From an uncultured Actinomycetes bacterium (GTDB lineage Bacteria; Actinomycetota; Actinomycetes; Nanopelagicales; Nanopelagicaceae), in the NCBI GenBank assembly GCA_903895995.1, contig CAITVX010000034.1:1-45745 (forward strand): DNA of 45,745 nucleotides, in the 5' to 3' direction. Position numbers and translations under genes: made by a program. Positions 1 to 15,520 of the stretch are shown here, piece after piece (the stretch's first letter is position 1; every line of letters begins with the position of its first letter). Below the pieces are notes generated by a model, which did no database searches, was not told the DNA's origin, and saw only the letters and a list, made by a program, of their open reading frames with translations.

Positions 1-878
1 GCAGCCCATCGGACATTGGAGCCAAGTGCCACCAGTCCAGCCGAGATCAAGACTTTGCTCAACGTTGCAAGGTCACTATTGAAGCGAGCTGAAGCATGGA
101 TTGCATTGTGTGCGATCGCAACCAGAATAAATCCGACGACAAAGAGAGGAACGATTGGAACCTTTGCCCCAGAAACTGATTTCCCGCCCGATAGTTTTCT
201 ATTGCGCAGAGAGAGGATCACAATGATTGGTGCAAGTAGACATACTCTGGCGAGTTTAAAGACGATCGCTGATGAGACTGATCCTGAGCCGAATACAGAT
301 GCAGTCGCTAAAACTTGGCCTACATCGTGTACTGCGGCGCCTGCCCATGATCCAAATGCGCGATCAGTCAGATGAATTGCATGGCCAATTACTGGGAGAA
401 CAAAGATTGAAAGAGTGCCGCAGAGAGAGACGAGTCCGATAGCGTACGAAGTCTCTTCCTCGGTCGCTTTGGTCTGAGGACGCACTGCTGCAATTGCACT
501 CGCACCGCAGATTGCAAAACCACAGGCGATCAACATGCCAAGATCATCACTGAGTTTGAAGAATTTTGAGAGAGCCAAGATTCCAAAGATCGTGAGCGCA
601 ACCACAATGATGATCGCTAGGAATCCTTTGATACCGATCGCCCGAAGAGCTGTTACCGAAACTTGAGCACCTAGTAGTACCACGCCAGTGCGCAAGACTC
701 GCTTACCGGCAAATGTGCTGCCCTCTTTTGCCCATCTGGGCCATTGCCAGAGATTTGCTACAAGAAAACCAAATGCAACAGAGAGCGCTAGAGGACTAAT
801 GGCAGATTGCCATTGAGATATTCCAAATGCGATTGCAACCAATCCTGCGATAAGAGCGAGGCCAGGAAGCTTCTTCAT
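1..878 (-). CDS. suyZ: SuyZ/YeiH-type putative sulfite/sulfate exporter (C-terminus cut by window edge)
   Basis: Reading leftward from an ATG at 878, the frame stays open to the window edge (292 complete codons), so the C-terminus is missing. The translation begins MKKLPGLALIAGLVAIAFG and is a chain of hydrophobic segments with family hallmarks of the UPF0324/YeiH proteins (Cons_hypoth698, putative sulfate exporter family): GKRVLRTGVVLLGAQVS, ICGASAIAAVRP, and SWAGAAVHDVGQVLATAS. Family knowledge: SuyZ of this family is encoded beside suyAB in sulfolactate degraders and is proposed to expel sulfite or sulfate made from the sulfonate. Here the start overlaps the stop of the upstream dehydrogenase (ATGA, 4 bases), so it is the last visible gene of the suyAB-slcC-comC operon, which supports an outlet for sulfite. 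The exported ion is inferred. Other YeiH proteins have no assigned substrate. Confidence 0.82.
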   Translation of the reverse strand, partial: MKKLPGLALIAGLVAIAFGISQWQSAISPLALSVAFGFLVANLWQWPRWAKEGSTFAGKRVLRTGVVLLGAQVSVTALRAIGIKGFLAIIIVVALTIFGILALSKFFKLSDDLGMLIACGFAICGASAIAAVRPQTKATEEETSYAIGLVSLCGTLSIFVLPVIGHAIHLTDRAFGSWAGAAVHDVGQVLATASVFGSGSVSSAIVFKLARVCLLAPIIVILSLRNRKLSGGKSVSGAKVPIVPLFVVGFILVAIAHNAIHASARFNSDLATLSKVLISAGLVALGSNVRWA

Positions 879-1882
879 GAACTTAGTTTCGCATCCCAAT
901 CGGCTAATTGTTGGAGAACGGTATCTGCGACCATGATTTCATCGCCGAGGTTGAGGTTTTGGGGATCAGTCCGGTTAACCCCAGGCATACGCCCACCAGC
1001 ACTTTTCACGGAATCTACAAAGGTGTCGAGGCGGTCATGAGTGCCATCAACAGTGAGTTTCTTCGCATCTATTGCGATGACAAAGTGTGAAATACCTTGT
1101 GGATTAGCTGCATCTTCAGGTGAGAACATATCTGGCATATTCGCAGCAAGAGTTGGACCGATAAGCGCTCCAGTTAAAGATTCAACAAGAACTGCGAGGG
1201 CGTAACCCTTTGCTCCACCAAGTGGGGCAAGCATTCCAGTCAGCGCGACCTTTGCATCTGTGGTCGGTTCACCACTAGCTGAGAAAGCCCAGCCAGGTTC
1301 GAGAGGTTCATTCGCTTGCGCTTTTGCAGCAATCTTTCCGCGAGCGACAGCAGATGTGGCCATATCAATAATTGTTGGTGGATTCGTTGGAATACCTGCT
1401 GCGATAGGCGATGTTGAGAGAACAGATTTCTTTCCACCCCATGGCGGCATGACTGCAGGACCGTTACTAAAAATAATTCCAACTAAACCTTTGCTAGTAA
1501 TGGGAGCGGTATAGATACCTAGTGCTCCGCAGTGTGAAGAAGCGCCAACTCCGACTGCAGCAATTCCATTCACTAAAGCACGGTCTGCAGCTAACTCCGC
1601 CGCAGCTTGCAACTGCCAATGACCCATTCCATTCTCGCCATTCATGACAACAAGACTTGGCATATCAGTAACTATCTTTAATGCGGCCTTTGCATTTATT
1701 CCACCAGCTAAAAGTCGCTCTAGGTAGAACGGTAAGCGCATCAGGCCATGGCTTCCGATCCCCCAACGATCACTCGCAAGAATCGCCCGAGCACTTGTGA
1801 CTGCGTGATCTTCTGAGAGGCCAGCTCTCATGAGGAGTGAGGTAGCGCGATCCAACTCTGAACCAAGATTTAGCTTTGCCAT
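875..1882 (-). CDS. comC: ComC-type (R)-sulfolactate dehydrogenase (malate/L-lactate dehydrogenase family)
   Basis: A 335-residue protein of the Ldh_2 (malate/L-lactate/sulfolactate dehydrogenase) family, which binds NAD(P) with a fold unlike the Rossmann lactate dehydrogenases. Family features: the early segment DRWGIGSHGLMRLPFYLER, the central VGVGASSHCGALGIYT, then PPWGGKKSVLSTSPIAAGIP and IDMATSAVARGKI, and the later GGAKGYALAVLVE. In Chromohalobacter salexigens, ComC is the (R)-sulfolactate dehydrogenase that reduces sulfopyruvate to (R)-sulfolactate and works with SlcC to epimerise sulfolactate before SuyAB. The same partners are present here. The start overlaps the stop of slcC by one base (TAATG) and the stop overlaps the exporter start. 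By sequence alone it could be a malate, lactate or ureidoglycolate dehydrogenase; the neighbours decide the call. Confidence 0.82.
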   Translation of the reverse strand: MAKLNLGSELDRATSLLMRAGLSEDHAVTSARAILASDRWGIGSHGLMRLPFYLERLLAGGINAKAALKIVTDMPSLVVMNGENGMGHWQLQAAAELAADRALVNGIAAVGVGASSHCGALGIYTAPITSKGLVGIIFSNGPAVMPPWGGKKSVLSTSPIAAGIPTNPPTIIDMATSAVARGKIAAKAQANEPLEPGWAFSASGEPTTDAKVALTGMLAPLGGAKGYALAVLVESLTGALIGPTLAANMPDMFSPEDAANPQGISHFVIAIDAKKLTVDGTHDRLDTFVDSVKSAGGRMPGVNRTDPQNLNLGDEIMVADTVLQQLADWDAKLSS

Positions 1883-2838
1883 TAGCGCGTCGACTCTTTA
1901 TGCGCGCCAACTGCATTGATCGCAGGTGTTGATGCAAGAACGAGTTCAATATTTGAGGTCAAAATAGAGTTGATCTTTGCTTGGCTCTCCTTGGTGATGC
2001 CTGCAATATGTGGAGTGAGAAGTACGTTGGAGAGAGTCTCTAGCTCCCCTGTAGTGGGCGGCTCGGCAGCACGCACATCAAGTCCAGCCCCAGCAACCTT
2101 TCCGCTCTTCAGGGCAACGATGAGGTCTGCCTCATTGATTACTTCACCGCGACCCACATTGATAATAAAAACCCCGTCTTTCATCTTTGCGATGAGTTGC
2201 GAATTCACTAACCCATTTGTATCTGGAGTGGATGGCATATGGATGCTGATAATCCCAGAACTCTTTACAAGGTCATCAATCGATCCAAGTGTGATGTCAA
2301 GCCCTGCGATCCGTGGATCATCTTCTTTTACAAAGGGATCGTAGGCGAGAAATGAGATATTAAATCCTTGGAGTAAGCGAACAGTTGCGATTGCTGTAGC
2401 TCCGCACCCAAGCAAGCCCCATGTACGGCCTGTAAGTTCAAGTCCAGGTGTGCGATTCCAAGAACCAGCACGAGTCTGTGCTGCAGAGTCTGGAATATTT
2501 CGCATCAAGGAGAGGGCTAAGCCAACAGTTAACTCACCAACACTTGTCGCATTGGCGCCAAGGCCAGCAACTACAACAATGCCACGGGAGTCCGCTGCTT
2601 TGATATCAATATTATCTAAGCCAACTCCTGCACGCGCAATGACTTTCAAAAGTGGCGCAGCATCGAGGAGCTCTGCAGTTACTTGAGTTCGATTACGTAC
2701 AACGAGCGCGGTCGCGGTCGCGAGTTCCTTCTTAAGATCGTCGACCTTATTCCAAAGATCGGGATCCTGCTTTACAGGATGCTTAGTAGCAAGCTCTGCA
2801 AAGGCAGGACCCCAGACATCTTCAGAGATCAGAATCAT
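1882..2838 (-). CDS. slcC: SlcC-type (S)-sulfolactate dehydrogenase (D-2-hydroxyacid dehydrogenase family)
   Basis: A 318-residue NAD-dependent D-isomer 2-hydroxyacid dehydrogenase. The N-terminal part carries ALVVRNRTQVTAELLDAAP and VIARAGVGLDNIDI. The nucleotide fold has the glycine motif GLLGCGATA in the middle. The catalytic triad is visible as Arg in INVGRGEV, Glu in AAEPP and His in LTPHIAG. It could be called phosphoglycerate dehydrogenase, but it lacks the ACT/ASB regulatory tail of SerA, and it lies between suyB and comC exactly as (S)-sulfolactate dehydrogenase SlcC does in known sulfolactate clusters. SlcC oxidises (S)-sulfolactate to sulfopyruvate; ComC then makes the (R)-isomer that SuyAB cleaves. 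A gap of 7 bases separates it from suyB. Substrate is inferred from context. Confidence 0.8.
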   Translation of the reverse strand: MILISEDVWGPAFAELATKHPVKQDPDLWNKVDDLKKELATATALVVRNRTQVTAELLDAAPLLKVIARAGVGLDNIDIKAADSRGIVVVAGLGANATSVGELTVGLALSLMRNIPDSAAQTRAGSWNRTPGLELTGRTWGLLGCGATAIATVRLLQGFNISFLAYDPFVKEDDPRIAGLDITLGSIDDLVKSSGIISIHMPSTPDTNGLVNSQLIAKMKDGVFIINVGRGEVINEADLIVALKSGKVAGAGLDVRAAEPPTTGELETLSNVLLTPHIAGITKESQAKINSILTSNIELVLASTPAINAVGAHKESTR

Positions 2839-2845: not shown

Positions 2846-4012
2846 TTAAGCGCTTATGTATAACTTAGTGAATGTGAATTCACGGTGACCCATGACTTCA
2901 GCAGTACAGAGGCGACCATTAACAGTCTTGTAGATGACATCCATCATCATGTCCCCTGCCTTGGTCAAGTCATACTCATAACGAAGCAGACCTGAGACAT
3001 CGAGATCCATATGCTCTGTCATTGATTTTGCAGTCTTGATATTTGCAGTCAACTTCAAAACAGGAATGATTGGATTTCCGATGACATTGCCCTGTCCTGT
3101 TGGGAACAAGTGAATGACCGCTCCGCCTGCTGCCATCAGAGTTACGCACTCTGCTGCTGCAGATGAAGAATCCATGAAGTAAAGACCCTTTTTCTTGGGA
3201 TCTGGAGCTTCAGCTGGCTTTAAAACACCGATAACAGGGACTGATCCAGTCTTAGCGATATTTCCAAGCGCCTTCTCTTCAATGGTTGTAAGACCACCGG
3301 CGATATTGCCTTGAGTTGGCTGGGAGCCAAGGAGGTTTGCGCCAGTTGATTCAATGACTTTGATGTAGTTGTCATATGTCTCTTGGAATAAGTCACGAGT
3401 GGCTGCATCAATGCAACGCTCTGCAATGAGGTGCTCTCCACCAGTGAGCTCTGAAGTCTCACCGAAGAAGACAGTTCCACCGGCTTCAACCCAGCGATCG
3501 ACTGCTTGGGATGTCGTTGGGCATGAACCGAGGCCAGAAGTTGTATCGGATTCGCCGCACTTGATCGACATAATCATGTCGCCAATTTCAGCTTCTTCAC
3601 GGACTAGTCCTGATGCATCTTGTAAGAACATTGCTGCAACTCGGCTAGCTTCTTGGATAACCTGAAGATCGCCCTTGCCTTCGATAGAGAATGCTGCAAC
3701 TGGCTTACCAGTCTTAGCGATTCCATCTGCAACGCGTTGTGTCCACTTTGGTTCGATACCAATAACAACAACTGCAGCGACGTTTGCATTCATGCCTGTG
3801 CCGATGAGTGTGTCAAAAGTGAGTTGAAGATCGGCGCCAAACTGCAAGCGGCCAAAAGCATGTGGCAGCGCAAGAGTTCCAGGAATAACCTTTGCTACAG
3901 CTTCTGCAGCTGCATTTGAAAGATCATCGAGTGGCAAGATGATGACGTGATTGCGGATACCCATAGTGCCGTTTTCACGGCGATATCCCATTAAGCGCGG
4001 CTTGCTTCCCAT
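2846..4012 (-). CDS. suyB: (2R)-sulfolactate sulfo-lyase, large subunit
   Basis: A 388-residue protein homologous to the C-terminal domain of UxaA altronate dehydratases. Motifs are GYRRENGTMGIRNHVIILP near the start, the Cys-containing IKCGESDTTSGLGSCP in the centre, NIAGGLTTIEEKALG, and a late GGAVIHLFPTGQGNVIGNP. SuyB with SuyA cleaves (R)-3-sulfolactate to pyruvate and sulfite in the cytoplasm. A separate short SAF subunit, comC and slcC next door and a SuyZ-like exporter favour this over altronate or galactarate dehydratase. The start at 4012 has a good ribosome site (AGGAG, six bases before the ATG). An alternative ATG at 3991 overlaps the suyA stop as TAATG. The chosen start lies inside the end of suyA, so the subunits are probably translationally coupled. 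Confidence 0.87.
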   Translation of the reverse strand: MGSKPRLMGYRRENGTMGIRNHVIILPLDDLSNAAAEAVAKVIPGTLALPHAFGRLQFGADLQLTFDTLIGTGMNANVAAVVVIGIEPKWTQRVADGIAKTGKPVAAFSIEGKGDLQVIQEASRVAAMFLQDASGLVREEAEIGDMIMSIKCGESDTTSGLGSCPTTSQAVDRWVEAGGTVFFGETSELTGGEHLIAERCIDAATRDLFQETYDNYIKVIESTGANLLGSQPTQGNIAGGLTTIEEKALGNIAKTGSVPVIGVLKPAEAPDPKKKGLYFMDSSSAAAECVTLMAAGGAVIHLFPTGQGNVIGNPIIPVLKLTANIKTAKSMTEHMDLDVSGLLRYEYDLTKAGDMMMDVIYKTVNGRLCTAEVMGHREFTFTKLYISA

Positions 4013-4293
4013 CGATAACTCCTCATGTTGTGTGTGTGAATGTAATCGCCCTTTTTGATGGCAGCTGATGCAAGTCCAACTTTGATGCCGTATTTAATAA
4101 TTGGGTCGCCATCGGCAAGATCTGCCAACGCGAATTTATGTCCGAGAGGAATCGCATGGTTGAGCACTGCGGTGCTCTCGGTCCCCTCTTTTACTGAACG
4201 CCCATGAAGGGTGCCGGGCTCCAGATCTGTCATCGCTACTGCGACATTGTCGCCATCGTGATGAAGCAGGAACTGCGGTGGTGTTATTGCCAT
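3991..4293 (-). CDS. suyA: (2R)-sulfolactate sulfo-lyase, small subunit (SAF domain)
   Basis: A protein of about 100 residues corresponding to the small N-terminal SAF domain of UxaA, ending in KKGDYIHTHNMRSYRW; the paired histidines there are typical of the family. SuyA pairs with SuyB to split sulfolactate into pyruvate and sulfite. I start it at the ATG at 4293 (MAITPPQFLLHHDG); the frame is open further upstream to 4389, but that extension would run through the operator and does not look like family sequence. It is the first gene of the suyA-suyB-slcC-comC-suyZ operon, divergent from the SqgA-like gene. A GntR-type operator lies about 50 bases before its start, so the sulfolactate module is probably controlled with the sulfosugar module. 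Confidence 0.85.
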   Translation of the reverse strand: MAITPPQFLLHHDGDNVAVAMTDLEPGTLHGRSVKEGTESTAVLNHAIPLGHKFALADLADGDPIIKYGIKVGLASAAIKKGDYIHTHNMRSYRWEASRA

Positions 4294-4344: not shown

Positions 4345-4363
4345 AGTGGTCTGACCTCTTGGG
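4345..4363. promoter_or_regulatory. Putative GntR-family operator, copy 1 (suyA side)
   Basis: The 19-base string AGTGGTCTGACCTCTTGGG is found here and again, identically, at 12684-12702 before the isomerase operon. Its core TGGTCTGACCT (4347-4357) is close to the TGGTnnnACCA palindrome bound by FadR-type GntR regulators, and such a regulator is encoded at 7306-8019. It lies in the divergent suyA/sqgA region. Which protein binds is inferred. Confidence 0.7.
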
Positions 4364-4412: not shown

Positions 4413-4423
4413 TGGTCTAACCT
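4413..4423. promoter_or_regulatory. Putative GntR-family operator, variant copy 2 (sqgA side)
   Basis: TGGTCTAACCT differs by one base from the TGGTCTGACCT core found at 4347 and 12686. It ends seven bases before the ATG at 4431, so a bound repressor would block initiation of the SqgA-like gene. The close placement suggests a very short or leaderless transcript. Confidence 0.6.
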
Positions 4424-4430: not shown

Positions 4431-5528
4431 ATGAGCAAGCTTCTGAGGTACGGAATTATCGGTGCAGGCAGTATGGGGCGCGAGCATATTCAGAACCTCA
4501 AAGTCATGGATGGCGTCGCCGTTACGGCGATCTGTGACCCTCACGTGCCCTCTCAGCAGGCGGCCTTGGCCCTCGCACCAGAAGCGAAAGTTTTTACCGA
4601 CCATAACTCGATGCTCAGCTCTGGCCTCATCGATGCCGTCATCATCGCAACTCCTAATGACACACATATTGAAGTGCTTCGTGATGCGCTCCGAACCGAT
4701 CTCGCAGTCTTTGTCGAGAAACCACTTGCTACAACAGCCGCAGATTGCAAAGAGATTCTCGATCTCGGAAATGCTCGCAAGGCTCTTACCTGGATGGGGC
4801 TCGAATATCGATTTATGCCACCTATCAATGAAGTCGTTCAGCGTACTAAAGCCGGAGAAGTCGGGAATGTCCACCATGTTTCTATCCGCGAACATCGCGA
4901 ACCTTTCTATCCCAAGGTAGATAACTGGAATCGCTTCACTGCTCGCACTGGTGGAACTCTCGTTGAAAAATGCTGCCACTATTTCAATTTGATGGATCTT
5001 GTCATAGGCGAGCATGCAACCAAGGTCTATGCAACCGGTGGCCAAAGCGTTAACTTCCTCGATGAAGTTTATGATGGCAAGCGAGCAGATATGTTGGATA
5101 GCGCCTTCGTCATTCTCGAATATGCATCTGGAAAACGTGCGATGCTCGATTTATGTATGTTTGGTGAAGGCTCGCACGATAAAGAGATCTTCACAGTAGT
5201 TGGCGATGAAGGAAAACTCGAATCATTCTTGCCATCTCACATCGTTCGCTACAGCAAACGCTCTGATTGGGGCAATGCATCGCAATGGGGTTCTGGTGGC
5301 AAAGGTGGAAGCCAAGAGCGAATCGTCCATGATCGCAATGTGAAATATCTTGGCGCTCATTACGGTGCTTCCTATATCGAGCATCTTAAATTCCACAAAG
5401 CCGTTCTAGATGCATCCCCTGCGGAAGTTACTTTGACTGATGGAGTCACAAGTGTCGCTACTGGAATCGCTGCTCAACTCAGCATCGCAGAGGGCCGGCC
5501 TGTATTGCTCTCAGAGATCCTTGGTTAA
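4431..5528 (+). CDS. Gfo/Idh/MocA-fold NAD-dependent protein, candidate GH188 sulfoquinovosidase (SqgA-like)
   Basis: A 365-residue Gfo/Idh/MocA protein: N-terminal Rossmann fold with GIIGAGSMGREH (residues about 9-19), the family EKPL motif at about 96-99, and the C-terminal domain motif GGTLVEKCCHYFNLMD at about 174-189. The start at 4431 (MSKLLRYG) is chosen over an ATG at 4410 because the latter lies in the operator. Most relatives are sugar or inositol dehydrogenases. However, an NAD-dependent sulfoquinovosidase family (GH188, SqgA) belongs to this superfamily and occurs in actinobacterial sulfoglycolysis clusters, where it hydrolyses sulfoquinovosides by a transient oxidation. There is no GH31 YihQ-type sulfoquinovosidase here, so this gene would fill the entry step. 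It is divergent from suyA, convergent with the aldolase, and flanked by the shared operator. The fold is certain and the activity inferred; a sulfosugar dehydrogenase is the main alternative. Confidence 0.65.
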   Translation: MSKLLRYGIIGAGSMGREHIQNLKVMDGVAVTAICDPHVPSQQAALALAPEAKVFTDHNSMLSSGLIDAVIIATPNDTHIEVLRDALRTDLAVFVEKPLATTAADCKEILDLGNARKALTWMGLEYRFMPPINEVVQRTKAGEVGNVHHVSIREHREPFYPKVDNWNRFTARTGGTLVEKCCHYFNLMDLVIGEHATKVYATGGQSVNFLDEVYDGKRADMLDSAFVILEYASGKRAMLDLCMFGEGSHDKEIFTVVGDEGKLESFLPSHIVRYSKRSDWGNASQWGSGGKGGSQERIVHDRNVKYLGAHYGASYIEHLKFHKAVLDASPAEVTLTDGVTSVATGIAAQLSIAEGRPVLLSEILG

Positions 5529-5537: not shown

Positions 5538-6422
5538 TTAATACGCTTGGCTAAAAGGCCGTGCATATTGATCAACGATTGCACCAAGCTTTTCAAGGCG
5601 AGGTACTGAAACCTCGCGCAATGCTTTATTAATATCTGAAGCACCCACGATATCTGCCCACACTGCGCGGCCAGCTAAGAATCCACTTGCTCCACCTTGT
5701 GCGCATGCCATCACGGCATCTGCAAAGAACTCTGCTTTAACACCATTGGAGAGAACAACCCATGGCCCTTGGATAGCTTCCGTGATCGCAGCAGATGCAC
5801 GAGTGATCGCCCCAAGATCGCCTTCGCCGTGGAAGGGAACCTCTGCCTTATAGAGATCAGCGCCCCAAGAACGAGCCTCACGTGCTGCCGTGATTAATTC
5901 AGCTTCGCGATCCCAGCTCTTAGAAGAATCATTTGGGGCTTTCACGATTACTTCGATAATCGATGGCAGATCAACCGCGTCACAGAGAGCATTGAATTCG
6001 TTGACAAGCTTCATGCGGGACTCTGGAGATTCATCATTGCGCCAGAGAACCAAAAACTTTAGACCTGCAGAGCCGATAGCTTTCATCCGAACTGGATCAA
6101 CGTCAGGATCAACTGCAGTATCTGTCGCTGCACCACCAGCTGGCCCGATCAGAAGATCTGCTGCAGCGATCAATCCACAATTGGAACTCATCACCTTTGC
6201 ATCAACAATCGCATCTAATCCAAATTCTTGATCAACTAACAGTCCAGAGCCATAAGGAGAAAGCTCACGTGCGACATCTACTTTGAACTGAGTAAGTTGA
6301 GAGTCTGGCACTGGAGTTGATTGGTGCTTAGCAAACATTCCACGAAGTGCTTCGCGTTGATCAACTGCGACCATTGCAAGTGCACCAGATGGCCTTGCTA
6401 AGCGGGATAGATCTCTCTTCAT
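5538..6422 (-). CDS. yihT: 6-deoxy-6-sulfofructose-1-phosphate aldolase (YihT family, class I)
   Basis: A 294-residue class I aldolase very like E. coli YihT as I recall that sequence: GALAMVAVDQREALRGMFA, then LSPYGSGLLVDQEFG, LKFLVLWRNDE, ADLYKAEVP, GPWVVLSNGV and GASGFLAGRAVW all have close counterparts at the same positions. Lys192 in ADLYKAEVP is the expected Schiff-base lysine, and Arg252 in LAGRAVW corresponds to the arginine of YihT's sulfonate-binding pocket. The enzyme splits sulfofructose-1-phosphate into dihydroxyacetone phosphate and sulfolactaldehyde in the cytoplasm. It is the last gene of the sulfosugar operon, overlapping the kinase stop by four bases (ATGA), and it ends nine bases from the convergent SqgA-like gene. 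LacD-type tagatose-1,6-bisphosphate aldolase is the nearest alternative; the kinase and suy genes favour YihT. Confidence 0.87.
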   Translation of the reverse strand: MKRDLSRLARPSGALAMVAVDQREALRGMFAKHQSTPVPDSQLTQFKVDVARELSPYGSGLLVDQEFGLDAIVDAKVMSSNCGLIAAADLLIGPAGGAATDTAVDPDVDPVRMKAIGSAGLKFLVLWRNDESPESRMKLVNEFNALCDAVDLPSIIEVIVKAPNDSSKSWDREAELITAAREARSWGADLYKAEVPFHGEGDLGAITRASAAITEAIQGPWVVLSNGVKAEFFADAVMACAQGGASGFLAGRAVWADIVGASDINKALREVSVPRLEKLGAIVDQYARPFSQAY

Positions 6423-7309
6423 TTCACTCCAGATAAGTAGGTATTGAGCTCGGATGTAGTTGGTATTGCAGATTGGCCATCAAGGCCTCGGCAAGAAAGG
6501 GCTGCCACTGCATTTGCTCTGCGAATGGCTTCTTGTAAGGCAAACCCTTGAATAAGTTGTGCAAGAAGTGCACCGTGAAAGACATCACCAGCACCTAAGG
6601 TGCTCACGATCTCGGTCTTAAAACTTGGGGCTTTAACTAAACCAGTTTGTGCTGAGTAGCCAGCGCTTCCAACGCTTCCTTGAGTAGCGACCACTAATGA
6701 TGCGCCCTTTTCTGCATCAATCGTGAGGGCTTCTTCAAAGCTCTTTCCAGGATGGCGGCTTAACAGAGATTTATCATTGGGGGCGAAGAGGTCCACTATT
6801 GTGACATCAAAGTTCTCAACGTCGTATCCCGCATCGAATGAGATCTTGGGTCTCGATCCGCGGACAATTCCAGCGCCTTTGAGTTGGTGTACTCCCACGT
6901 GATCTACATGAACCCAATCAGCTTTTGAAGCTATCGCTTTAGCGCGATCGTTCAGCGGAGCCTGGTGAATTGGTTGGCGAGTACTAATAGCCCTCGCACT
7001 GTATTCGCGCGAAGCAACAATCACTGCACCACCCGTTGGGGTTGATGTGCGAGTTATTCCCTCAGTATTTACGCCTTCTCGTTTGAAAATATCTAAAACA
7101 TAATCGCCATCTGCATCATTGCCGATAGTCCCAGCAATTGCACTTGAGACTCCAAGGCGAGCAAGGGCAACTGATGCCACTGCTGCAGGACCGCCGCCTG
7201 CTCGGACAATCTCTTCAGCTATTACTCGATCATCTGCAGATGGATATTTATCAACGAGCGCGATTGTGTCAACCGTTATGACACCGATGCAAAGTACTTG
7301 AGGATTCAC
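6419..7309 (-). CDS. yihV: Sulfofructose kinase (YihV-like, PfkB family)
   Basis: A 296-residue ribokinase/PfkB-family kinase. The N-terminal signature GGGPAAVASVALARLG (residues 38-53) closely parallels YihV's GGGPAATAAVAAARLG. The second PfkB signature TLGAGDVFHGALL is at 237-249 with the catalytic base Asp242; the same GAGDVFHGAL stretch occurs in YihV. It would phosphorylate 6-deoxy-6-sulfofructose with ATP to give the aldolase substrate. The gene lies between the GntR regulator (4-base overlap upstream) and the YihT-like aldolase (4-base overlap downstream), an order that strongly supports sulfoglycolysis. PfkB specificity is hard to read from sequence alone, so the substrate rests on YihV similarity and linkage. 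Confidence 0.84.
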   Translation of the reverse strand: MNPQVLCIGVITVDTIALVDKYPSADDRVIAEEIVRAGGGPAAVASVALARLGVSSAIAGTIGNDADGDYVLDIFKREGVNTEGITRTSTPTGGAVIVASREYSARAISTRQPIHQAPLNDRAKAIASKADWVHVDHVGVHQLKGAGIVRGSRPKISFDAGYDVENFDVTIVDLFAPNDKSLLSRHPGKSFEEALTIDAEKGASLVVATQGSVGSAGYSAQTGLVKAPSFKTEIVSTLGAGDVFHGALLAQLIQGFALQEAIRRANAVAALSCRGLDGQSAIPTTSELNTYLSGVK

Positions 7310-8019
7310 TTGCGAGATTTCTGCTTTGCATCTGCAATTGCCGTCTGACGTGCACCGGTGATGTGCGCTCTTGTGAGCGATGCTGCAAGTTCGCCCTCTC
7401 GATTCTCAATTGCCTTAAGGATCGCTTCGTGCTCGCTTCGAGAGATTTCAACGCGGCCAGGAAGCCTCAGAGTTGTCTCCATAGACATTCTCATCACATC
7501 TTGCAAGACACCTAAAGTCTGGTTAATGAATCGGTTTCCTGCGATCCCGACAATTGTGAGATGGAACTTTGCATCGAGTGTTTGCAACAGTTGAAAATCT
7601 ACATTCTCTTGAGCGGTAACTTGAGCCATCTGATTGATTGTGGCTCGCAAAGTCCGGATATCCTCTTTATTTGCGCGTTCAGATGCCCATCGCGATGAAG
7701 GAACTTCGAGTGCTTCGCGTGCGTCGAAGAGTTCATTGAGATCGTGAGTCTTCGCGATCGTCGCAGCACGTAACTCTTGAGCCAAGACAGGCTCAGCAAC
7801 GAAGGTTCCTTGTCCGTGCTTAATCGCAACGAGACCTTGTGCCTGGAGAATATGGAGAGCCTCGCGAAGACTTGGGCGACTTACATCGAGTAACTCTGCA
7901 AGTTGGCGCTCTGGGGGTAGCGCACTCCCTGGAGCTAGCTTCTGAGAGTTGATCATCTCAATAACTTGGCCAGCGATACGAGACGCCCTGCTTTCAGATG
8001 GAACTGCTTGGAGCGCCAT
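7306..8019 (-). CDS. GntR-family (FadR/FCD subfamily) regulator of the sulfosugar regulon
   Basis: A 237-residue regulator. The N-terminal winged helix-turn-helix has the GntR pattern LPPERQLAELLDVSRPSLREAL and the wing KHGQGTFVAE (within residues 30-75). The C-terminal all-helical FCD ligand domain contains the DAREALE signature, the late NRFINQTLGVLQDVMR and SEHEAILKAIENRE. Members of this subfamily bind TGGTnnnACCA-like palindromes and are usually released by a pathway intermediate. Matching sites occur at 4347, 4413 and 12686, before sqgA/suyA and before the operon that contains this gene, so autoregulation is likely. It starts three bases after the permease stop and overlaps the kinase start. 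E. coli instead uses a DeoR-type regulator (CsqR/YihW), so the control differs. Effector unknown. Confidence 0.88.
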   Translation of the reverse strand: MALQAVPSESRASRIAGQVIEMINSQKLAPGSALPPERQLAELLDVSRPSLREALHILQAQGLVAIKHGQGTFVAEPVLAQELRAATIAKTHDLNELFDAREALEVPSSRWASERANKEDIRTLRATINQMAQVTAQENVDFQLLQTLDAKFHLTIVGIAGNRFINQTLGVLQDVMRMSMETTLRLPGRVEISRSEHEAILKAIENREGELAASLTRAHITGARQTAIADAKQKSRK

Positions 8020-8022
8020 TAA

Positions 8023-8838
8023 TTAACCTTTCACTGCGCCGGCGGTGAGGCCGGCGACAAATGATTTCTGCATGAAGATGTACATCAACACCATTGGGAT
8101 GGACGCAACCATGATAGCGGTGAATAGCATGCTATAGCTGGTTGCATATTCTCCTCGGAAATCAATGAGCGTGAGAGGGAGCGTTTTCTTATCTACCTGG
8201 GTAATAAGCATCAAAGGATAGAGAAGGTCATTCCAGCAGATGACGAAGAGGAAGATTCCCGTTGCGCCCATAGCTGGCTTTGAGAGCGGGAGCGCGATTG
8301 ATCGATATGTTCGCCACATTCCTGCCCCATCAATACCTGATGCTTCGATCATCTCTCGAGGGAGATCTTTAAAGAAGGTTGTAAGGATGAATATAGAGAT
8401 TGGAAGAGTCACAGCGATATTGACCAGAATCAATCCAAAGAGCGAATTCGTCAGATGTAACTTCACAAATAGTAGATAGACAGGGATGATATTTACCTGG
8501 CCGGGTATCGCGAGCCCAAGTGCAAAGAGAAGAAAGAGCACGCGGCCGGTTACCGTAATCATTCGAGAGATGGCGAAAGCACACATACTCGCAAGCGTCA
8601 GCGTGAGTACTACCGAGAATGAAGTGACAATAAAACTGTTCTTAAAGGGTGTGAGGACATTGCCTTCATGAATAAGCCGAGTGAAGTTAGCGAAAGACCA
8701 ATGCTTTGGGAGAGCGAGTGGGTTTGTATAGATTTCAAAATCCTGCTTAAAGGAGCCCAGCACGACAATTGAACTTGGAACCAGAACCAATATCGCAAAG
8801 ATCGCAAGAAGGACTCTTCGAGAGATGTTGTAGAACAT
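8023..8838 (-). CDS. Sugar ABC transporter permease, MalG/CUT1 type
   Basis: A 271-residue inner-membrane permease of the carbohydrate uptake 1 family (COG0395 type), with about six hydrophobic segments and the EAA-loop motif MIEASGIDGAGMWRTYRSI followed by ALPLSKPA, which docks the ATPase. It ends in the usual C-terminal helix FVAGLTAGAVKG. Its start overlaps the stop of the partner permease by one base. With the upstream binding protein it should import a sulfosugar or sulfoquinovosyl glyceride, by analogy with the SmoFGH system of sulfoquinovose-using Agrobacterium. No ATP-binding subunit is encoded in this operon, so a shared MsiK-like ATPase elsewhere is probable. Transport of sulfoquinovose is inferred from context only. 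Confidence 0.85.
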   Translation of the reverse strand: MFYNISRRVLLAIFAILVLVPSSIVVLGSFKQDFEIYTNPLALPKHWSFANFTRLIHEGNVLTPFKNSFIVTSFSVVLTLTLASMCAFAISRMITVTGRVLFLLFALGLAIPGQVNIIPVYLLFVKLHLTNSLFGLILVNIAVTLPISIFILTTFFKDLPREMIEASGIDGAGMWRTYRSIALPLSKPAMGATGIFLFVICWNDLLYPLMLITQVDKKTLPLTLIDFRGEYATSYSMLFTAIMVASIPMVLMYIFMQKSFVAGLTAGAVKG

Positions 8839-9683
8839 TACTTCTCTCCACCCTTCACTCGTAGGGTTCGACGTTGAATCCAGGTAATAACCAGCACGAA
8901 GATAATTAAGATTATTGATTCAGCTGAGGCGTAACCAAACTTGTATGCGCCAAAGGCCATGTTGAAGATATTTGTGACGATCAAATCCGATGAGTTCATC
9001 GGTCCGCCTTGGGTCATGGAGTAGACAAGGTCAAATGCTCTAAATGTCTGGATAGTTGTGTACGCCACCACAACGGCAGTTGTTGGAAGCGCCATCGGCC
9101 ACGTCACATATCTAAATTGATGCCAGCGGCTTGCTCCATCAACTTCAGCTGACTCATAGAGCTCTTGTGGGATTTGCTGAAGTCCGGCCAAGTAAATAAC
9201 AACCATCTGCCCTGTATGGAACCAAATCTGCGCAATCGCGACTGAGTAGAGCGAGAAGCGCGCATCGTTGAGCCAATTAAGTGCAAGTGAGTTTAACCCA
9301 AGAGATTTAAGGGTTGCATTGATGAATCCGAAATTGGGGTTGTATAAGAAAGTCCAGATCAACCCTACTGAAACAGAGGAGAGAATTGTTGGAAAGAAGA
9401 AGACTGTACGAAGGAAGATATTCGACTTCGTATTCTTCACTAAAAAGATCGCGAAGAGCAGGGAGAAGAGTGTTTGAAGAATGACAACGATAAATGAGAA
9501 TCGAATGTTATTTCCAACGATCTTATGGAATGTGAGGTCATTAGCGATGAGATATTTAAAGTTATGGAGCCCAACAAACTCTGGCTTTGTGACACCATCC
9601 CAACGTTGGGTCGAATAGAGCAAATTTGAAACAGCAGGATAGAGATAGAGAAAACCGTAGAGCAGAGCCGCAGGGGCTGCCAT
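8838..9683 (-). CDS. Sugar ABC transporter permease, MalF/CUT1 type (start codon uncertain)
   Basis: An at least 281-residue permease of the COG1175 type with six predicted membrane segments and the EAA motif ESAEVDGASRWHQFRYVTWP. The first in-frame ATG is at 9683, directly before the first membrane helix and without a visible ribosome site. The frame remains open upstream to the stop of the binding-protein gene, and codes APKKRRRTESRVLIA just before the ATG, a basic N-terminus typical of these permeases. No ATG, GTG or TTG exists in that extension; an in-frame ATT overlaps the upstream stop at 9788. The true start may therefore be non-canonical. The partner permease lies immediately downstream. 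Presumed substrate: sulfoquinovose or its glycosides. Confidence 0.83.
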   Translation of the reverse strand: MAAPAALLYGFLYLYPAVSNLLYSTQRWDGVTKPEFVGLHNFKYLIANDLTFHKIVGNNIRFSFIVVILQTLFSLLFAIFLVKNTKSNIFLRTVFFFPTILSSVSVGLIWTFLYNPNFGFINATLKSLGLNSLALNWLNDARFSLYSVAIAQIWFHTGQMVVIYLAGLQQIPQELYESAEVDGASRWHQFRYVTWPMALPTTAVVVAYTTIQTFRAFDLVYSMTQGGPMNSSDLIVTNIFNMAFGAYKFGYASAESIILIIFVLVITWIQRRTLRVKGGEK

Positions 9684-9787: not shown

Positions 9788-11236
9788 TTAGGCACCAAGA
9801 TTTGACTTGATGGTTTTAGCTGTATCAGCAAGCGTCTTCGTAATATCTGCTCCGCCACCGATTGCAATCAATGCATCTTCGACTGGGTTACGAACAGTTG
9901 TTACGTTGTTGAACAAGAATCGTGGAGCAAGGAGAAGCTTCTTACCCATGATATCTGAGGTGTTCAAGAGATCAGCGTTAGCTGAGTAGTCAACGTCGAG
10001 GATTGATACATGCTGTGAAGTACCAACGGCATATTCCTGAGCAGCAGCAGCTGTGCAGAGATATGAGATGAAGGCGTTAGCGATAGCTTGATCGTGTGAT
10101 GTTGACTTTGCATTAACGCTCAAGATGAAGGTGTTATTTGTAATACCTTCGTAGAGAGGCTTTGTGTCAACAGTGATCATGCCGAAGACTTTCATGTTGC
10201 CCTTCATCGCTGGGTTTAATCCAGTAACGGTGCTCATACCGAATGTACCTGTTGGGTAGATAGCGGCTTTGCCTGCTGCGAAGTCAGCTGGAGCAACGGT
10301 GTCGTTGTAACCAGTGACATTTGCAGGGAAGCAACCAGCATCATTCATCTGCTTGTACTTAGTCGCAATATCCACGAACCATTGCTGAGTTACATCAGCC
10401 TTGCCGGTGTCGATTGCCTGTACTCGTGATGTAAGTGTTGCAAGATCAGGAGCTGAGTTCATGAGGAATGAGTTCATGATCTGACCCGCATTTCCGCGAG
10501 TAGCTGCTGGCCATGCAAAAGGAATGATTCCAGCTGCTTTTACTGTCTTACAGAATGCAAGGAGTCCGGTCCAGTTAGTTGGAACTGTCCAGCCCTTAGC
10601 CTTGAACATGCTGACGTTGTAGACAGGATCGTTGAAGAGAGATTGGTATGGAACTCCATAAACAGCTGAACCAACAATTCCAGGCGTCAGCGCGCTAGCA
10701 ATAACGTTCTGCTTCACATAACGCTGATTTGAAATATCCTTGAGGAGTCCGCCCTTGTAGAACTGATCAAACTGACCGCCACGGCTGGTGACAAAGATTG
10801 CAGCCTTTGGGTTTGCAGAGATCTGTGAGTATGCAAGGTTGGTGTAGTCGTTTGAGCTCTCAATAACCTGAGTAATCTTCACACCAGGGTTAGCAGCTTG
10901 GAACTTATCAATGATGCTCTGGAGGACAACTTTATCCTCAGCGCGCCAGTGATGGAATTCGATAGAGCCGCCACCAGAAACGTGAAGAGCTGGAACTGGA
11001 AGTGCGCCACCGGAGGACAACTTAACCTTTGCCCACTTAAGTACGCCCTTGCTATCTGCAGCGCAGACAAGTGATGTAGATGAAGTACCGGTGTTTGCTC
11101 CTTCAGTGGCGCACTTAGCACCAAAGCTTGGAGTTGTATCTGCACTTACGGCTGTGAGTGATGCTGTTACAAGGCCCAATGCCACAACAGCGATAGCTCC
11201 CAAACGGAAAGTGCTTCTTTGCATTCCTTTTTTCAT
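9788..11236 (-). CDS. Extracellular sugar-binding protein of the ABC transporter
   Basis: A 482-residue family-1 extracellular solute-binding protein. The N-terminus is a Sec signal peptide with a cleavage-like VSA at 30-32 and no lipobox cysteine. Next comes a short Cys-containing segment (Cys42, Cys58, Trp68) and a linker. The binding fold begins around residue 88 with IEFHHWRAEDKVVLQSIIDKF and includes GVPYQSLFNDPVYNVSMF and FAAGKAAIYPTGTFGMS. It should deliver a sulfosugar to the two permeases downstream. It follows the isomerase gene by about 37 bases, with an AGGA-type ribosome site; the first ATG (11236) is preferred over one four codons later. Absence of a lipid anchor is unusual for a monoderm binding protein. 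Ligand inferred from the operon. Confidence 0.85.
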   Translation of the reverse strand: MKKGMQRSTFRLGAIAVVALGLVTASLTAVSADTTPSFGAKCATEGANTGTSSTSLVCAADSKGVLKWAKVKLSSGGALPVPALHVSGGGSIEFHHWRAEDKVVLQSIIDKFQAANPGVKITQVIESSNDYTNLAYSQISANPKAAIFVTSRGGQFDQFYKGGLLKDISNQRYVKQNVIASALTPGIVGSAVYGVPYQSLFNDPVYNVSMFKAKGWTVPTNWTGLLAFCKTVKAAGIIPFAWPAATRGNAGQIMNSFLMNSAPDLATLTSRVQAIDTGKADVTQQWFVDIATKYKQMNDAGCFPANVTGYNDTVAPADFAAGKAAIYPTGTFGMSTVTGLNPAMKGNMKVFGMITVDTKPLYEGITNNTFILSVNAKSTSHDQAIANAFISYLCTAAAAQEYAVGTSQHVSILDVDYSANADLLNTSDIMGKKLLLAPRFLFNNVTTVRNPVEDALIAIGGGADITKTLADTAKTIKSNLGA

Positions 11237-11273: not shown

Positions 11274-12674
11274 TTACCATTCTGTGAGGGGGATCCCAAG
11301 CAATTGCGCCATCTGACGTAAACCAGGTCTTACATCAACCCATGAGATCACGAGGTGATGCGGGTACCCGCCAGTGACTATTCCATTCACCAATGCAGCG
11401 GCGTCGACATCTGTCTTCACCGTTGCTGTGTTGCCTTGGAAGTGGTTGGGAGCTGGGATTGATTCCCCTCTACTCACAACCATGCGCAGACCCGTGCGGT
11501 TGCTCGGATCTACATCCCGATCAATACGGAACAGGGTTACTGGTCCAGTCTTGAGCGGAAAGTTACCTGCTACACCCAGCTTGCGATTGCAGTGGATGGA
11601 TTGCGTTGCATCATCAGGATCAGCCGCAAGCTTTGTGGCAGCAGAACCACAATGCCAAAGCCGGATAATCCCCTCGCTCTCTTGGAGATCGACGATATCA
11701 ACTAAATAATTTTCATCAGAGCCAAAAGCTTCACAGATCAACATCGTCACGGCGCCCATAACATCGCGCTCGCATGTTGTGACGGTGCCACGATCAGATA
11801 AGCGACCAAGAGCTGAGCAGACACATGCTCCTAAATCAGTGGGAAATTCTGGCCAGCAACGAACAGCGATTGCATCCAGGTGATCTTTCTCTTGCCAATC
11901 ATCAAGTGCTACTTCAACACCAGCAACCTTGATCGCTTCGAGCGTATTCACAGATGAGAGTGATGGTTGCGCACTTACCGCTGAGTTGTATGCTGCTTCT
12001 GCACGAGCTGCGGGAACTTCTGCAATTTTGGCAAAGGCATCGACCATTGTGAGAGGCAAAATATTTAATTCAAAGAGTTCTTTTAACTTAGGTCCATCAA
12101 AGGTGCATGGAGTAAATCCAATGGGTGCTTCACCGATTGTTCCAATGCGCTTTCCTGAAAGCCTTGCAAGCGCAGCTTTTGTCTCTGCAACATCTGCAAG
12201 CGGACCAGTAATAGATGCTGGCGCAGATGCAGCAGGAAGGTTTCCTGCGAGCGCAGCAGCAAGCTTTGTACGCACTTGTGCTTCATCTGCATTTCCATGA
12301 AGATGTCTAAAAGTTTGTCCGGCACTCATCAACGCATGAGCCGCAAGATTTGCTCCGCACATTGAGTTAAGTTTCAAGCGATCGCCAACTTCACCAGGTT
12401 CGCGCATTGACCAGAGAAGAACTGGGCCAGGGACTTTGCCGAGCAGCTCAACAGCTGGAGATGCATCCGAGAATGAAGCCATGAAGAGTATGTAGAGATC
12501 ACCTGCGGGAATGACTGCAGCAGCGACATCTTCGGGAGTCATCACAAGCTCCGCTGGTCCGACCACTTCTGCACCAAGATCTGTCAGGAGAGCCCTCGCT
12601 GCATCGAAATTAGCCTGAGCGCAACCTAAATCAAAGGTCGGGCGCGCAAGCGCAACCATTACAACCTTCGACAT
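11274..12674 (-). CDS. L-fucose/arabinose isomerase-fold protein, candidate sulfoquinovose isomerase (SqvD-like)
   Basis: A 466-residue protein of the L-fucose/L-arabinose isomerase superfamily: an N-terminal Rossmann-like region (residues about 1-170) with LLWSMREPGEVGDRLKLNSM, then the catalytic part with CWPEFPTDLGACVCSALGRL at 273-292 and CERDVMGAVTMLI at 301-313, which hold probable metal ligands (Glu/Asp), and a C-terminal barrel. The ATG at 12674 (MSKVVMVALARP) is chosen; the open frame to 12716 covers the operator. It heads the sulfosugar operon. There is no YihS-type (AGE-fold) isomerase here, so it is the natural candidate to convert sulfoquinovose to sulfofructose. SqvD-type isomerases of other sulfoglycolysis clusters belong, as I recall, to this superfamily. 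Family confident, substrate inferred. Confidence 0.75.
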   Translation of the reverse strand: MSKVVMVALARPTFDLGCAQANFDAARALLTDLGAEVVGPAELVMTPEDVAAAVIPAGDLYILFMASFSDASPAVELLGKVPGPVLLWSMREPGEVGDRLKLNSMCGANLAAHALMSAGQTFRHLHGNADEAQVRTKLAAALAGNLPAASAPASITGPLADVAETKAALARLSGKRIGTIGEAPIGFTPCTFDGPKLKELFELNILPLTMVDAFAKIAEVPAARAEAAYNSAVSAQPSLSSVNTLEAIKVAGVEVALDDWQEKDHLDAIAVRCWPEFPTDLGACVCSALGRLSDRGTVTTCERDVMGAVTMLICEAFGSDENYLVDIVDLQESEGIIRLWHCGSAATKLAADPDDATQSIHCNRKLGVAGNFPLKTGPVTLFRIDRDVDPSNRTGLRMVVSRGESIPAPNHFQGNTATVKTDVDAAALVNGIVTGGYPHHLVISWVDVRPGLRQMAQLLGIPLTEW

Positions 12675-12683: not shown

Positions 12684-12702
12684 AGTGGTCTGACCTCTTG
12701 GG
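12684..12702. promoter_or_regulatory. Putative GntR-family operator, copy 3 (isomerase operon)
   Basis: AGTGGTCTGACCTCTTGGG is an exact 19-base copy of the site at 4345-4363. The core lies 11 bases before the ATG at 12674, a repressor position for a promoter with a short leader. It links the isomerase-transporter-kinase-aldolase operon to the suy/sqgA pair. Confidence 0.72.
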
Positions 12703-12782: not shown

Positions 12783-13844
12783 TTAGAGGGCCAGGATCCC
12801 CGGACGCGAGCGCCCGCTGACCGAGATTGATGGCCAAGATGAGTCGTTGGTGAGGAGTTCGATGCCAGAGGCAGTTGTTATCAACGTATCTTCGACCTTC
12901 CAGCCCTTGCCTGTTGGGTTCCATGCGATGGGTTGGTTCAGGGCAATCGGTCTTGTTACCCCGAGATTTGATGGCCAATCGCGGGGCAGGTAGCCAGTCG
13001 GTCCGCCTTGGTGGTGTTTATGCCACTCATCTTTGTCAAAGCCATTCTCACCGTAGGCAAGCGATGCTGCCTTCACTGGATCGGCAAATGATGCGCCAAC
13101 AAGAGTTGCGTCAAGCATGGCAGCTTCAACCTTCAAGAGAGATTGATATTCGACAAGGCCAGCACCAATCGGTCCGAAGTGAACTATCCGAGTTACTGAT
13201 GCAATCAACCCTTTTCGCTTTGCACAGATAGATGCAACAACGCGGTTTCCGACGAGATCGGTGGTCGGCAATGGGTGACGCATCAATGGGGCGCGTCTTT
13301 CGCCGGCAACGCCTAGGAATGCAATCTCTAGATCTGCTTGCCAGAGTGCATCAGTAATTTTCCCTGCAACATCAATTTCACGATCGCCGCTGACAATCGC
13401 ACGCATCGCTTTGCCAAGTGCTACAGCTGAATCACTGCAGACTAAACGCAATCTTTCACTATCTTCTTTGACTAATGATTGACGAAGAATTTCAATCTCA
13501 GTTCCAAGATCAACTCTGCCAGCGCCTACTTGATCGCTTCCAATTTTTTCTCCAGTTGGAAGCTCTGGATCTCGTCCTTCCCACCAGGCAACAGTTTTAA
13601 CATCAATTCCACCAGGTAGCTCTTCTGCAATCAAACGTGGGGCTTCAATGACGTTTGTGACTGCATAGACGGTGGTTGGAGTAATTACTACATCTAAACA
13701 AGCGGCATCAATAGTTGTAGGTACATGAACTCTGCCACCTACAAACCAAGCCAGGTTGGGGTTTCGACGCAAGACGATCGCATCAAGTGATCTCTCACCT
13801 AGAAGGTTGCGAATCTTTTCTAAACGCTCTTCATAACCTGACAT
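12783..13844 (-). CDS. M24-fold (creatinase/prolidase-like) protein lacking metal ligands
   Basis: A 353-residue pita-bread-fold protein: a creatinase N-terminal domain (residues about 1-125, with LDAIVLRRNPNLAWFVGG) and an M24 catalytic-like domain. Of the five usual metal ligands (Asp, Asp, His, Glu, Glu), the positions are Ser205, Ser216, His278 (HHQGGPTGY), Asn309 and Glu318 (KVEDTLI), so three are lost. This recalls creatinase, an M24 relative that hydrolyses C-N bonds without metal. The start at 13844 (MSGYEERLEK) is preferred over 13964. It overlaps the PfkB gene by 14 bases and ends the three-gene operon. Function unknown; simple annotation as a metallopeptidase would probably be wrong. 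Confidence 0.75.
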   Translation of the reverse strand: MSGYEERLEKIRNLLGERSLDAIVLRRNPNLAWFVGGRVHVPTTIDAACLDVVITPTTVYAVTNVIEAPRLIAEELPGGIDVKTVAWWEGRDPELPTGEKIGSDQVGAGRVDLGTEIEILRQSLVKEDSERLRLVCSDSAVALGKAMRAIVSGDREIDVAGKITDALWQADLEIAFLGVAGERRAPLMRHPLPTTDLVGNRVVASICAKRKGLIASVTRIVHFGPIGAGLVEYQSLLKVEAAMLDATLVGASFADPVKAASLAYGENGFDKDEWHKHHQGGPTGYLPRDWPSNLGVTRPIALNQPIAWNPTGKGWKVEDTLITTASGIELLTNDSSWPSISVSGRSRPGILAL

Positions 13845-14670
13845 CGGGATACCTCTCAACGACTTTGGTCCAGTGTGGTGGAAGTGAATCGTATTGCTCA
13901 ACTGCAAGTGATGCCCAGGCCGACCCGACCCGAAGGGCTGCTTCTGGGGACATCTCCTTGGCAACTGCTGCTAAAAATCCAGCGATAAAGCTATCTCCAG
14001 CGCCCGTTGCATCAAGAACCGATGCAGGAAAAATATCGTGATGCAGGGTCAGGTCTTTGGAGAAGTAGTCAGCTCCTCTTTCCCCATCAGTCACAACGAT
14101 CTCTGAAAAACGTGAAGTATCAAAGGGGCCACTGCAATCATTACTAGAACCAATGGCAAGATCTGCGCCATGAACAGCTTCATCTGCACAAGCCTGTAAA
14201 CCAACAACAGTCATACAACCCTTTGCTTGGGCTCTCTTTAATTCAGGCAGGAAGAAATCTCTCCACAGTGCAAAGACGACGATATCCCCCGGTGCGATAT
14301 CTGCGCCGTCGAGGGAGAGCTCAGGAAGGTGGCTCTTATTTTGTGCGATGACAGTTCTTTCACCATGTGGAGAGATGAGTAAAAGTGGAGAATTAGTCTC
14401 TCCATCGATAGTTGTAATAAGAGGAAATTTAATCTCGCTCTTTGCTACTTCGGCGAGTACCTGCTTGCCAACGGCATCATTACCGACATAACCAATAAAA
14501 CCAACCTCGATACCGGCGGTAGCAAGGCCGTGGGCGATATTAAATGCGCTGCCGCCGATTCGTTCGCTTCTACTCTTCGCTCGTGAAAATGATCCAGGGG
14601 TAGGAAACTCTTCGAGATAGAGCGCGATATCCCAAGCAACTGGGCCGATGACCCACGCTCTCTTACTCAT
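13831..14670 (-). CDS. PfkB-family carbohydrate/nucleoside kinase
   Basis: A 279-residue ribokinase-family kinase with N-terminal VIGPVAWDIALYLEEFPTPG, the first signature RIGGSAFNIAHGLATAGIEVGFIG (residues about 38-60) and the second signature DATGAGDSFIAGFLAAVA near residue 220, which contains the catalytic Asp. It phosphorylates a sugar or nucleoside hydroxyl with ATP; the substrate cannot be read. It sits between an ADP-ribosylglycohydrolase-like gene (8-base overlap) and the M24-fold gene (14-base overlap), so a glycoside hydrolase releasing a sugar and a kinase trapping it is a reasonable model. It is distinct from the YihV-like kinase and lies upstream of the GntR site, so it may not be part of that regulon. 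Confidence 0.85.
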   Translation of the reverse strand: MSKRAWVIGPVAWDIALYLEEFPTPGSFSRAKSRSERIGGSAFNIAHGLATAGIEVGFIGYVGNDAVGKQVLAEVAKSEIKFPLITTIDGETNSPLLLISPHGERTVIAQNKSHLPELSLDGADIAPGDIVVFALWRDFFLPELKRAQAKGCMTVVGLQACADEAVHGADLAIGSSNDCSGPFDTSRFSEIVVTDGERGADYFSKDLTLHHDIFPASVLDATGAGDSFIAGFLAAVAKEMSPEAALRVGSAWASLAVEQYDSLPPHWTKVVERYPDVRL

Positions 14671-15514
14671 GTGTATTCCTCTTACTTAATAAAATTTCAA
14701 CAAGGCTCTCGGCATCTGCAAGCTCTGACCAATCTACCTCTGTCATCCAGTCGATAGCTAGTAACTCTTGCAGATCTGGGTTGCGAATTGCATAGAGCCC
14801 GGCGCACAGAGCAGCGATGGTGTCTGTATCTCCGCCTATCTTCACAGAGCGATGGTAGGTATCGATCAAGGATTTTGAACTCTCGACCACTTGAATAACG
14901 GCAGCCAAGGTATCGAGAGCTCCATTTGAAACACCATCGCGTGGTGAGACCCAGGTATCTATATTCTCAATACGTTCCCGAACTGCAGGATCGAGCTTCT
15001 CGGAGAGCATCGCAGAACGGATCGGAATCTCGAACTCTCCATAAGCGGTAGCAAGCGCGATCGCGCAATCTCGGGCGATGTTCTGACTATGGGTTGGAGT
15101 TGTAAGCGCGCTAATCCATTCGCGCCGCTCTTTCGCATCATCAAAGACGATTCCGCAGAGAGCAGTTCGCATCATCCCGCCGTTGCTGATCCCCACTTCG
15201 TGAAGTTCGCGCTCTTTAACTGGCAGTCCCAGTGCAGATCGAGTTGTTGGGCCGAGTCCACGCAACTGATCAACATGCGCATGTAAGAGAGTCAAAAAGT
15301 TAGAACCTGCTTGCACCGAAGTATCTGCAGCGAGAGCCAAAATTGTTAAGCGCGTAAGCAAGGTGTCATCACTCACCCCGCCGACCGGCCATCCCGGTTT
15401 AGTACCTATCGATGTAGGAGCGGCACCTTCATTCCGAGGTGCAAATTCAGATTGGAATCCATAGGCATCTCCTGCTGCATAGGCAAGGAGTGCAAGCATC
15501 GAACGTCGATGCAA
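14663..15514 (-). CDS. ADP-ribosylglycohydrolase (DraG) family protein
   Basis: About 280 residues with the DraG family metal-binding motifs: AYAAGDAYGFQSEF near the N-terminus, VGGVSDDTLLT around residue 45, and SVKIGGDTDTIAALCAGLYA near 230. Family members remove ADP-ribose from proteins or hydrolyse other N- or O-ribosides using two Mg ions. The start is uncertain: TTG at 15514 gives LHRRSMLALLAYAAGDAYG, ATG at 15499 is possible, and an ATG at 15562 would translate straight through the terminator of the aquaporin gene, so I reject it. Linked to a PfkB kinase and an M24-fold protein, it may act on a small ribosyl compound and not on a protein. Substrate unknown. Confidence 0.8.
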   Translation of the reverse strand: MHRRSMLALLAYAAGDAYGFQSEFAPRNEGAAPTSIGTKPGWPVGGVSDDTLLTRLTILALAADTSVQAGSNFLTLLHAHVDQLRGLGPTTRSALGLPVKERELHEVGISNGGMMRTALCGIVFDDAKERREWISALTTPTHSQNIARDCAIALATAYGEFEIPIRSAMLSEKLDPAVRERIENIDTWVSPRDGVSNGALDTLAAVIQVVESSKSLIDTYHRSVKIGGDTDTIAALCAGLYAIRNPDLQELLAIDWMTEVDWSELADAESLVEILLSKRNTHE

Positions 15515-15520
15515 AGAAGA

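Follow-up and report, generated by a model that had tools for sequence, protein, structure and literature searches.

A Tyr160-variant GH188 homologue, very probably an NAD-dependent sulfoquinovosidase, in a sulfoquinovose catabolic cluster of a Nanopelagicaceae genome

The stretch of DNA analysed here (45,745 nucleotides, hereafter the window) comes from an uncultured member of the Nanopelagicaceae and begins with a cluster of genes (Table 1) that includes an sqgA-like gene with an intact frame (ATG, 365 codons and a stop), divergent from suyA and convergent with the class I aldolase gene. An alternative in-frame ATG lies upstream at 4410; the start at 4431 is preferred because the earlier one would place an operator copy (4413-4422) inside the gene and because relatives align from about 4431. 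The 365-residue product carries an N-terminal GFO_IDH_MocA and a C-terminal GFO_IDH_MocA_C domain (Pfam). Elsewhere in the cluster, the solute-binding protein is extended by about 100 residues ahead of its SBP_bac_1 domain, and a segment of this part, beyond the signal region, contains two Cys. Next to the isomerase lies a weakly M24/creatinase-like protein (12783-13964, minus strand). In Nanopelagicaceae clusters of both types, this protein adjoins either sqgA or the isomerase, and it has a homologue (40% identity) in the GH188 locus of Arthrobacter sp. SO3 (L171). A second PfkB kinase and an ADP-ribosylglycohydrolase-family protein (13831-15562, minus strand) follow the cluster; no homologues of these were found near GH188 genes in the relatives searched.

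Table 1. Predicted features of the cluster, in window positions.
Feature	Positions	Strand	Evidence or location
PF03601 membrane protein, candidate sulfite exporter	3..899	-	PF03601; conserved in clusters of relatives
comC-like Ldh_2 dehydrogenase (sulfolactate dehydrogenase)	875..1882	-	NF040650 195 bits, under cut-off 500; PF02615
slcC-like 2-hydroxyacid dehydrogenase (S-sulfolactate dehydrogenase)	1882..2838	-	profile and Pfam, cluster position
suyB, large subunit of (R)-sulfolactate sulfo-lyase (galactarate/altronate dehydratase family)	2846..4012	-	profile and Pfam
suyA, small subunit of (R)-sulfolactate sulfo-lyase (SAF domain)	3991..4293	-	Pfam, sequence; from ATG at about 4293
operator TGGTCTGACC	4347..4356	+	suyA/sqgA divergent intergenic region
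operator TGGTCTAACC	4413..4422	+	first base 18 bp before sqgA ATG
sqgA-like gene, GH188 NAD-dependent sulfoquinovosidase homologue (Tyr160 variant)	4431..5528	+	PDB search, alignment, tree, model fold match
class I sulfofructose-1-phosphate aldolase (YihT-like)	5538..6422	-	YihT 7ag1 249 bits
PfkB-family sulfofructose kinase	6419..7309	-	best PDB match YihV 7ag6, E 3.5e-26
GntR/FCD regulator, presumed operator binder	7306..8019	-	profile and Pfam matches
ABC sugar-transporter permease	8023..8838	-	sequence; conserved in relatives
ABC sugar-transporter permease	8838..9683	-	sequence; conserved in relatives
ABC solute-binding protein	9788..11236	-	SBP_bac_1
SftI/SqvD-type (fucose-isomerase-like) sulfoquinovose isomerase	11274..12674	-	NF048012 270 bits, under cut-off 700; Fucose_iso_C
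operator TGGTCTGACC	12686..12695	+	just upstream of isomerase ATG (about 12674)

The sequence TGGTCTRACC has five exact matches in the genome, three of them in the cluster (4347, 4413 and 12686), where a rough Poisson estimate gives about 5e-5 for three matches in 13 kb by chance; the 19-bp block around the first of these sites is identical to that around the third. A wider regulon was considered and set aside: the two other matches fall within tilS-like and purD-like frames (recognised by eye) and, being inside coding sequence, are unlikely sites. The core GGTCTRACC stands 17 and 83 bp upstream of sqgA and is conserved across the Nanopelagicaceae. Of an initial set of 30 loci, 28 have two copies ahead of the gene; L020 and L023 have one each, and their sequence is cut close upstream of sqgA. 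The copies sit at fixed places in type I loci, nearly all type II loci have one at about -30, and none precedes sqgA in any of the Leu-variant loci examined. A GntR/FCD repressor, presumably the one encoded in the cluster, would bind this operator and jointly control sqgA, the suy side and the isomerase.

A preliminary description of this DNA had proposed that the product, which would ordinarily be annotated as a sugar dehydrogenase, is instead an NAD-dependent sulfoquinovosidase of family GH188: it had pointed to the missing GH31 sulfoquinovosidase and to the shared operator, and had taken clustering outside GH188 as grounds for abandoning the idea. The sequence evidence supports the proposal. 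The operator is indeed shared, its copies upstream of sqgA being kept in relatives, the neighbouring genes are those that the description implied, and the GH31 domain PF01055 has no match in the genome (1.36 Mb, 99.9% complete), while control genomes give matches, so that the gene sits, as expected for GH188, in a catabolic cluster for sulfoquinovose (SQ) devoid of GH31. The closest solved relatives are the SqgA structures 8qc3 (ArSqgA) and 8qc2 (FlSqgA), with E about 1e-106, 360 bits and 47-48% identity (phmmer against the PDB), and a marine sulfoquinovosidase (8zn9) matches with E 5.5e-84 and 42% identity; the next family, inositol-dehydrogenase-like, reaches 99 bits (E about 1e-27 to 3e-27). 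An AlphaFold2 model built with 22 relatives (mean pLDDT 91) matches GH188 entries with Z of 45-47, well above the 37.6 of the next entries, which are other oxidoreductases. In a tree of 75 rows with two inositol-dehydrogenase-type outgroups, the protein falls inside GH188, nesting with crystallised and characterised SqgA and far from the inositol dehydrogenases and other Gfo/Idh/MocA enzymes (100% SH-aLRT against the outgroups). Could the protein nevertheless be a plain NAD-dependent dehydrogenase of sugars or inositol, or else one that oxidises SQ or a glycoside at C3 and performs no hydrolysis? The Gfo/Idh/MocA fold is common to both, and the best NCBIfam match is indeed an inositol 2-dehydrogenase (IolG, TIGR04380), but at 144 bits against a curated cut-off of 355 and outside that group in the tree; moreover, the protein retains the Tyr, Glu and His residues specific to the glycosidases, and no oxidation step is needed in a cluster where free SQ is already dealt with by isomerisation. 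We consider this reading highly improbable, and the product is very probably an NAD-using enzyme that would free SQ from plant and algal sulfolipid.

The preliminary description had also called for a comparison of the sulfonate-binding residues, and these are present together with the catalytic ones. In ArSqgA, the sugar is surrounded by Lys107, Tyr136, Glu163, Glu189, His193 and His321, and the sulfonate is contacted by the side chains of Arg166 and Lys172 and by the backbone NH of Leu170 (PMC10755693); we equate Glu163 of that paper with the Glu of the EHR motif, residue 164 by offset from the PDB sequence. The equivalents here are K97, Y126, E154, E179, H183 and H310 for the sugar and R156, K162 and Y160 for the sulfonate. 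All but Y160 are identical in every aligned GH188 row, and the outgroups differ at most of these positions. Thus, the Arg and Lys of the sulfonate triad are retained, and Tyr160 replaces a Leu that contributes only its backbone NH. The loop around it, RFPFLHK in ArSqgA and FlSqgA, reads REPFYPK here, with three changes (F167E, L170Y and x171P); given that 54 of the 56 members of the Tyr clade share this signature, residues 167 and 171 change together with residue 170.

These changes raise the question of whether the pocket of this GH188-type glycosidase now favours a different sulfonated substrate over sulfoquinovosyl glycerol, with a change in either the glycoside or the aglycone (a sulfofucoside or different sulfoquinovosides, for instance). 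The altered EPFYPK loop in those 54 of 56 members of one monophyletic clade, a fucose-isomerase-family isomerase in the cluster, and the use of SuyAB, SlcC and ComC in sulfofucose degradation by Paracoccus wurundjeri (PMC12421959) would all fit such a shift. However, position 170 touches the sulfonate through its backbone NH, and no side chain that contacts the sugar has changed. In addition, the isomerase most resembles SftI/SqvD, a family of SQ isomerases, and the best matches of both aldolase and kinase are enzymes of SQ pathways. All this makes a shifted specificity unlikely.

The assignment to SQ catabolism leads to the question of which route is encoded. The YihV-like kinase and the class I YihT-like aldolase (249 bits to YihT against 92 bits to the next family, tagatose-bisphosphate aldolases) are those of the sulfo-EMP pathway (YihS/YihV/YihT), but the isomerase, which found no sequence match in the PDB, is not of the YihS type (PF07221): it is SftI/SqvD-like, with a Fucose_iso_C domain, a group that serves sulfo-EMP2, sulfo-TAL and sulfo-TK. 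Sulfo-EMP2 itself (SqvD/SqiK/SqiA) does not fit, the kinase being PfkB (PF00294) and not PF00365, and the aldolase PF01791 and not class II (PF01116). The predicted enzymes thus make the cluster a hybrid sulfo-EMP that continues into SlcC/ComC/SuyAB and the PF03601 candidate exporter; hybrid SQ pathways have been mentioned before (PMC9594981). Sulfolactaldehyde oxidation is the weakest link of the proposed route: no sulfolactaldehyde dehydrogenase is present in the cluster or regulon, and the genome has six near-full-length aldehyde dehydrogenases, of which one, clearly GabD-like (contig C35), is the best candidate. As to the fate of the sulfite, its assimilation by a sulfite reductase was discarded, as the sulfite/nitrite reductase domain PF01077 is absent from the genome, which suggests that SQ supplies carbon and that the sulfite is discarded. 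Even so, a few kb from the cluster (19547-20976, minus strand) there are genes resembling those for serine acetyltransferase and cysteine synthase.

Tyr variants of GH188 were noticed in 2024, when two groups with Tyr in place of Leu170 were described as separate SSN clusters, Y160 (Actinobacteria bacterium IMCC26103, a freshwater actinobacterium) and Y158 (Clavibacter sp.), with a predicted change of the dimer interface and with their activity left by the authors for further analysis to determine (PMC11465081); a search of the available literature found no later publication on this subgroup. The Tyr falls at residue 160 in the product studied here and at 158 in a Clavibacter sp. BS5 protein (L111), and all sampled Tyr variants form a single clade in the 75-row tree (SH-aLRT 100). 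Two of its three subclades are from Nanopelagicaceae, one with the aldolase (type I) and one lacking a homologue of it (type II); the third is from Burkholderiales (for example Rhizobacter, Piscinibacter, Limnohabitans and Pelomonas). In the type II clusters (L111, L078 and L080), the isomerase, kinase, SuyAB and SlcC are present and no homologue of the window aldolase was found. Premature stops suspected in type II relatives (one TAG in the search table) were dismissed, the stop directly preceding the ATG, outside the gene, in the two that were checked (G036 and G140). The sampled Burkholderiales loci contain parts of a sulfo-ED pathway instead, namely an IlvD/Edd dehydratase (L113 and L129), an HpcH/HpaI aldolase (L122) and an SMP-30 lactonase (L120); SuyAB, SlcC and ComC accompany these in two loci, and a PF03601 protein in one. 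That a common glycosidase stands above two routes, hybrid sulfo-EMP and sulfo-ED, argues for cleavage and not for a route-specific oxidation. The gene is carried by 60 of the 251 sampled genomes of the order, in 7 of 16 genera, yet by only 2 of the 22 genomes listed from the window's own genus, suggesting cassette-wise gain or loss. The mineralising gene set also occurs outside the Tyr clade, since a Leu-variant GH188 locus of Acidimicrobiia bacterium MO_197.B6 (L155) contains SftI-like, SuyAB, SlcC and ComC genes. It is tempting to speculate, though we think it less likely than not, that the Tyr clade is a functionally distinct GH188 branch, with a remodelled sulfonate loop and dimer interface, through which freshwater members of the Nanopelagicaceae and Burkholderiales could selectively exploit sulfolipid head groups in solution; in Nanopelagicaceae it would feed a hybrid sulfo-EMP/SuyAB pathway taking SQ to sulfite in one small genome devoid of sulfite reductase.

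Altogether, we hold with good confidence that the gene encodes a cytoplasmic GH188 NAD-dependent sulfoquinovosidase feeding a route from SQ to sulfite under GntR/FCD control. A sulfoquinovoside, most likely sulfoquinovosyl glycerol, would be imported by the ABC transporter; NAD+ would transiently oxidise its C3, the aglycone would be eliminated from C1, water would add, and the enzyme-bound NADH would reduce the ketone again, releasing free SQ and glycerol (the genome encodes a glycerol kinase) with no net redox change, following the oxidation-elimination-hydration-reduction mechanism demonstrated for FlSqgA and ArSqgA (PMC10755693). SQ would then be isomerised by the SftI/SqvD-type enzyme, phosphorylated and cleaved by the YihT-like aldolase to DHAP and sulfolactaldehyde, which may be oxidised to sulfolactate and inverted in configuration by SlcC and ComC; finally, SuyAB would split sulfolactate into sulfite and pyruvate, the sulfite leaving the cell, probably through the PF03601 protein. 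Against this explanation stand the three loop changes, the predicted dimer change, the lack of an in-cluster sulfolactaldehyde dehydrogenase, and the scores of the isomerase and ComC, which fall under their cut-offs. About 10 billion tonnes of SQ are produced each year (PMC10755693), and the Nanopelagicales rank with the most abundant bacteria of lakes (PMC10202952, PMC5301498), meaning that, if the proposed route is true, part of the Nanopelagicales would convert sulfolipid head groups to sulfite and central carbon with no partner organism. The REPFYPK loop and the GGTCTRACC operator could together serve as a marker for the trait in lake metagenomes, and the finding directs attention to a branch of GH188 whose activity is predicted.

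Compared with known systems, the protein has the fold, the catalytic residues and the Arg/Lys sulfonate contacts of ArSqgA (Arthrobacter sp. U41; 8qc3, 8qc5 and 8qc6) and FlSqgA (Flavobacterium sp. K172; 8qc2 and 8qc8) (PMC10755693), whose clusters likewise have no GH31. The fold and residues of 8zn9 are also those found here, except that 8zn9 has a Leu at the Tyr position. Unlike the window cluster, Arthrobacter strains AK01 and AK04 use a YihS-type isomerase and excrete sulfolactate. Paracoccus wurundjeri (PMC12421959) similarly combines SlcC, ComC and SuyAB for mineralisation in one organism, but it degrades sulfofucose by an Entner-Doudoroff-like route and no sulfofucosidase was found. A further parallel is IMCC26103: as described in the paper, its protein has the Tyr at exactly residue 160, and its cluster has the same content (aldolase, kinase, regulator, ABC transporter and fucose isomerase), together with two sulfo-lyase subunits and a D-3-phosphoglycerate-dehydrogenase-like gene, as here. 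The GH188 family and the Y160 sub-branch are thus already in the literature, so that the headline identification is not new and the novelty is modest, given that the Tyr subgroup had been noticed (PMC11465081). What is added to that work is (i), the union of Y160 and Y158 in one clade that includes Burkholderiales; (ii), the Glu/Pro loop signature; (iii), a defined and conserved operator; and (iv), a hybrid pathway in a genome that has neither GH31 nor sulfite reductase.
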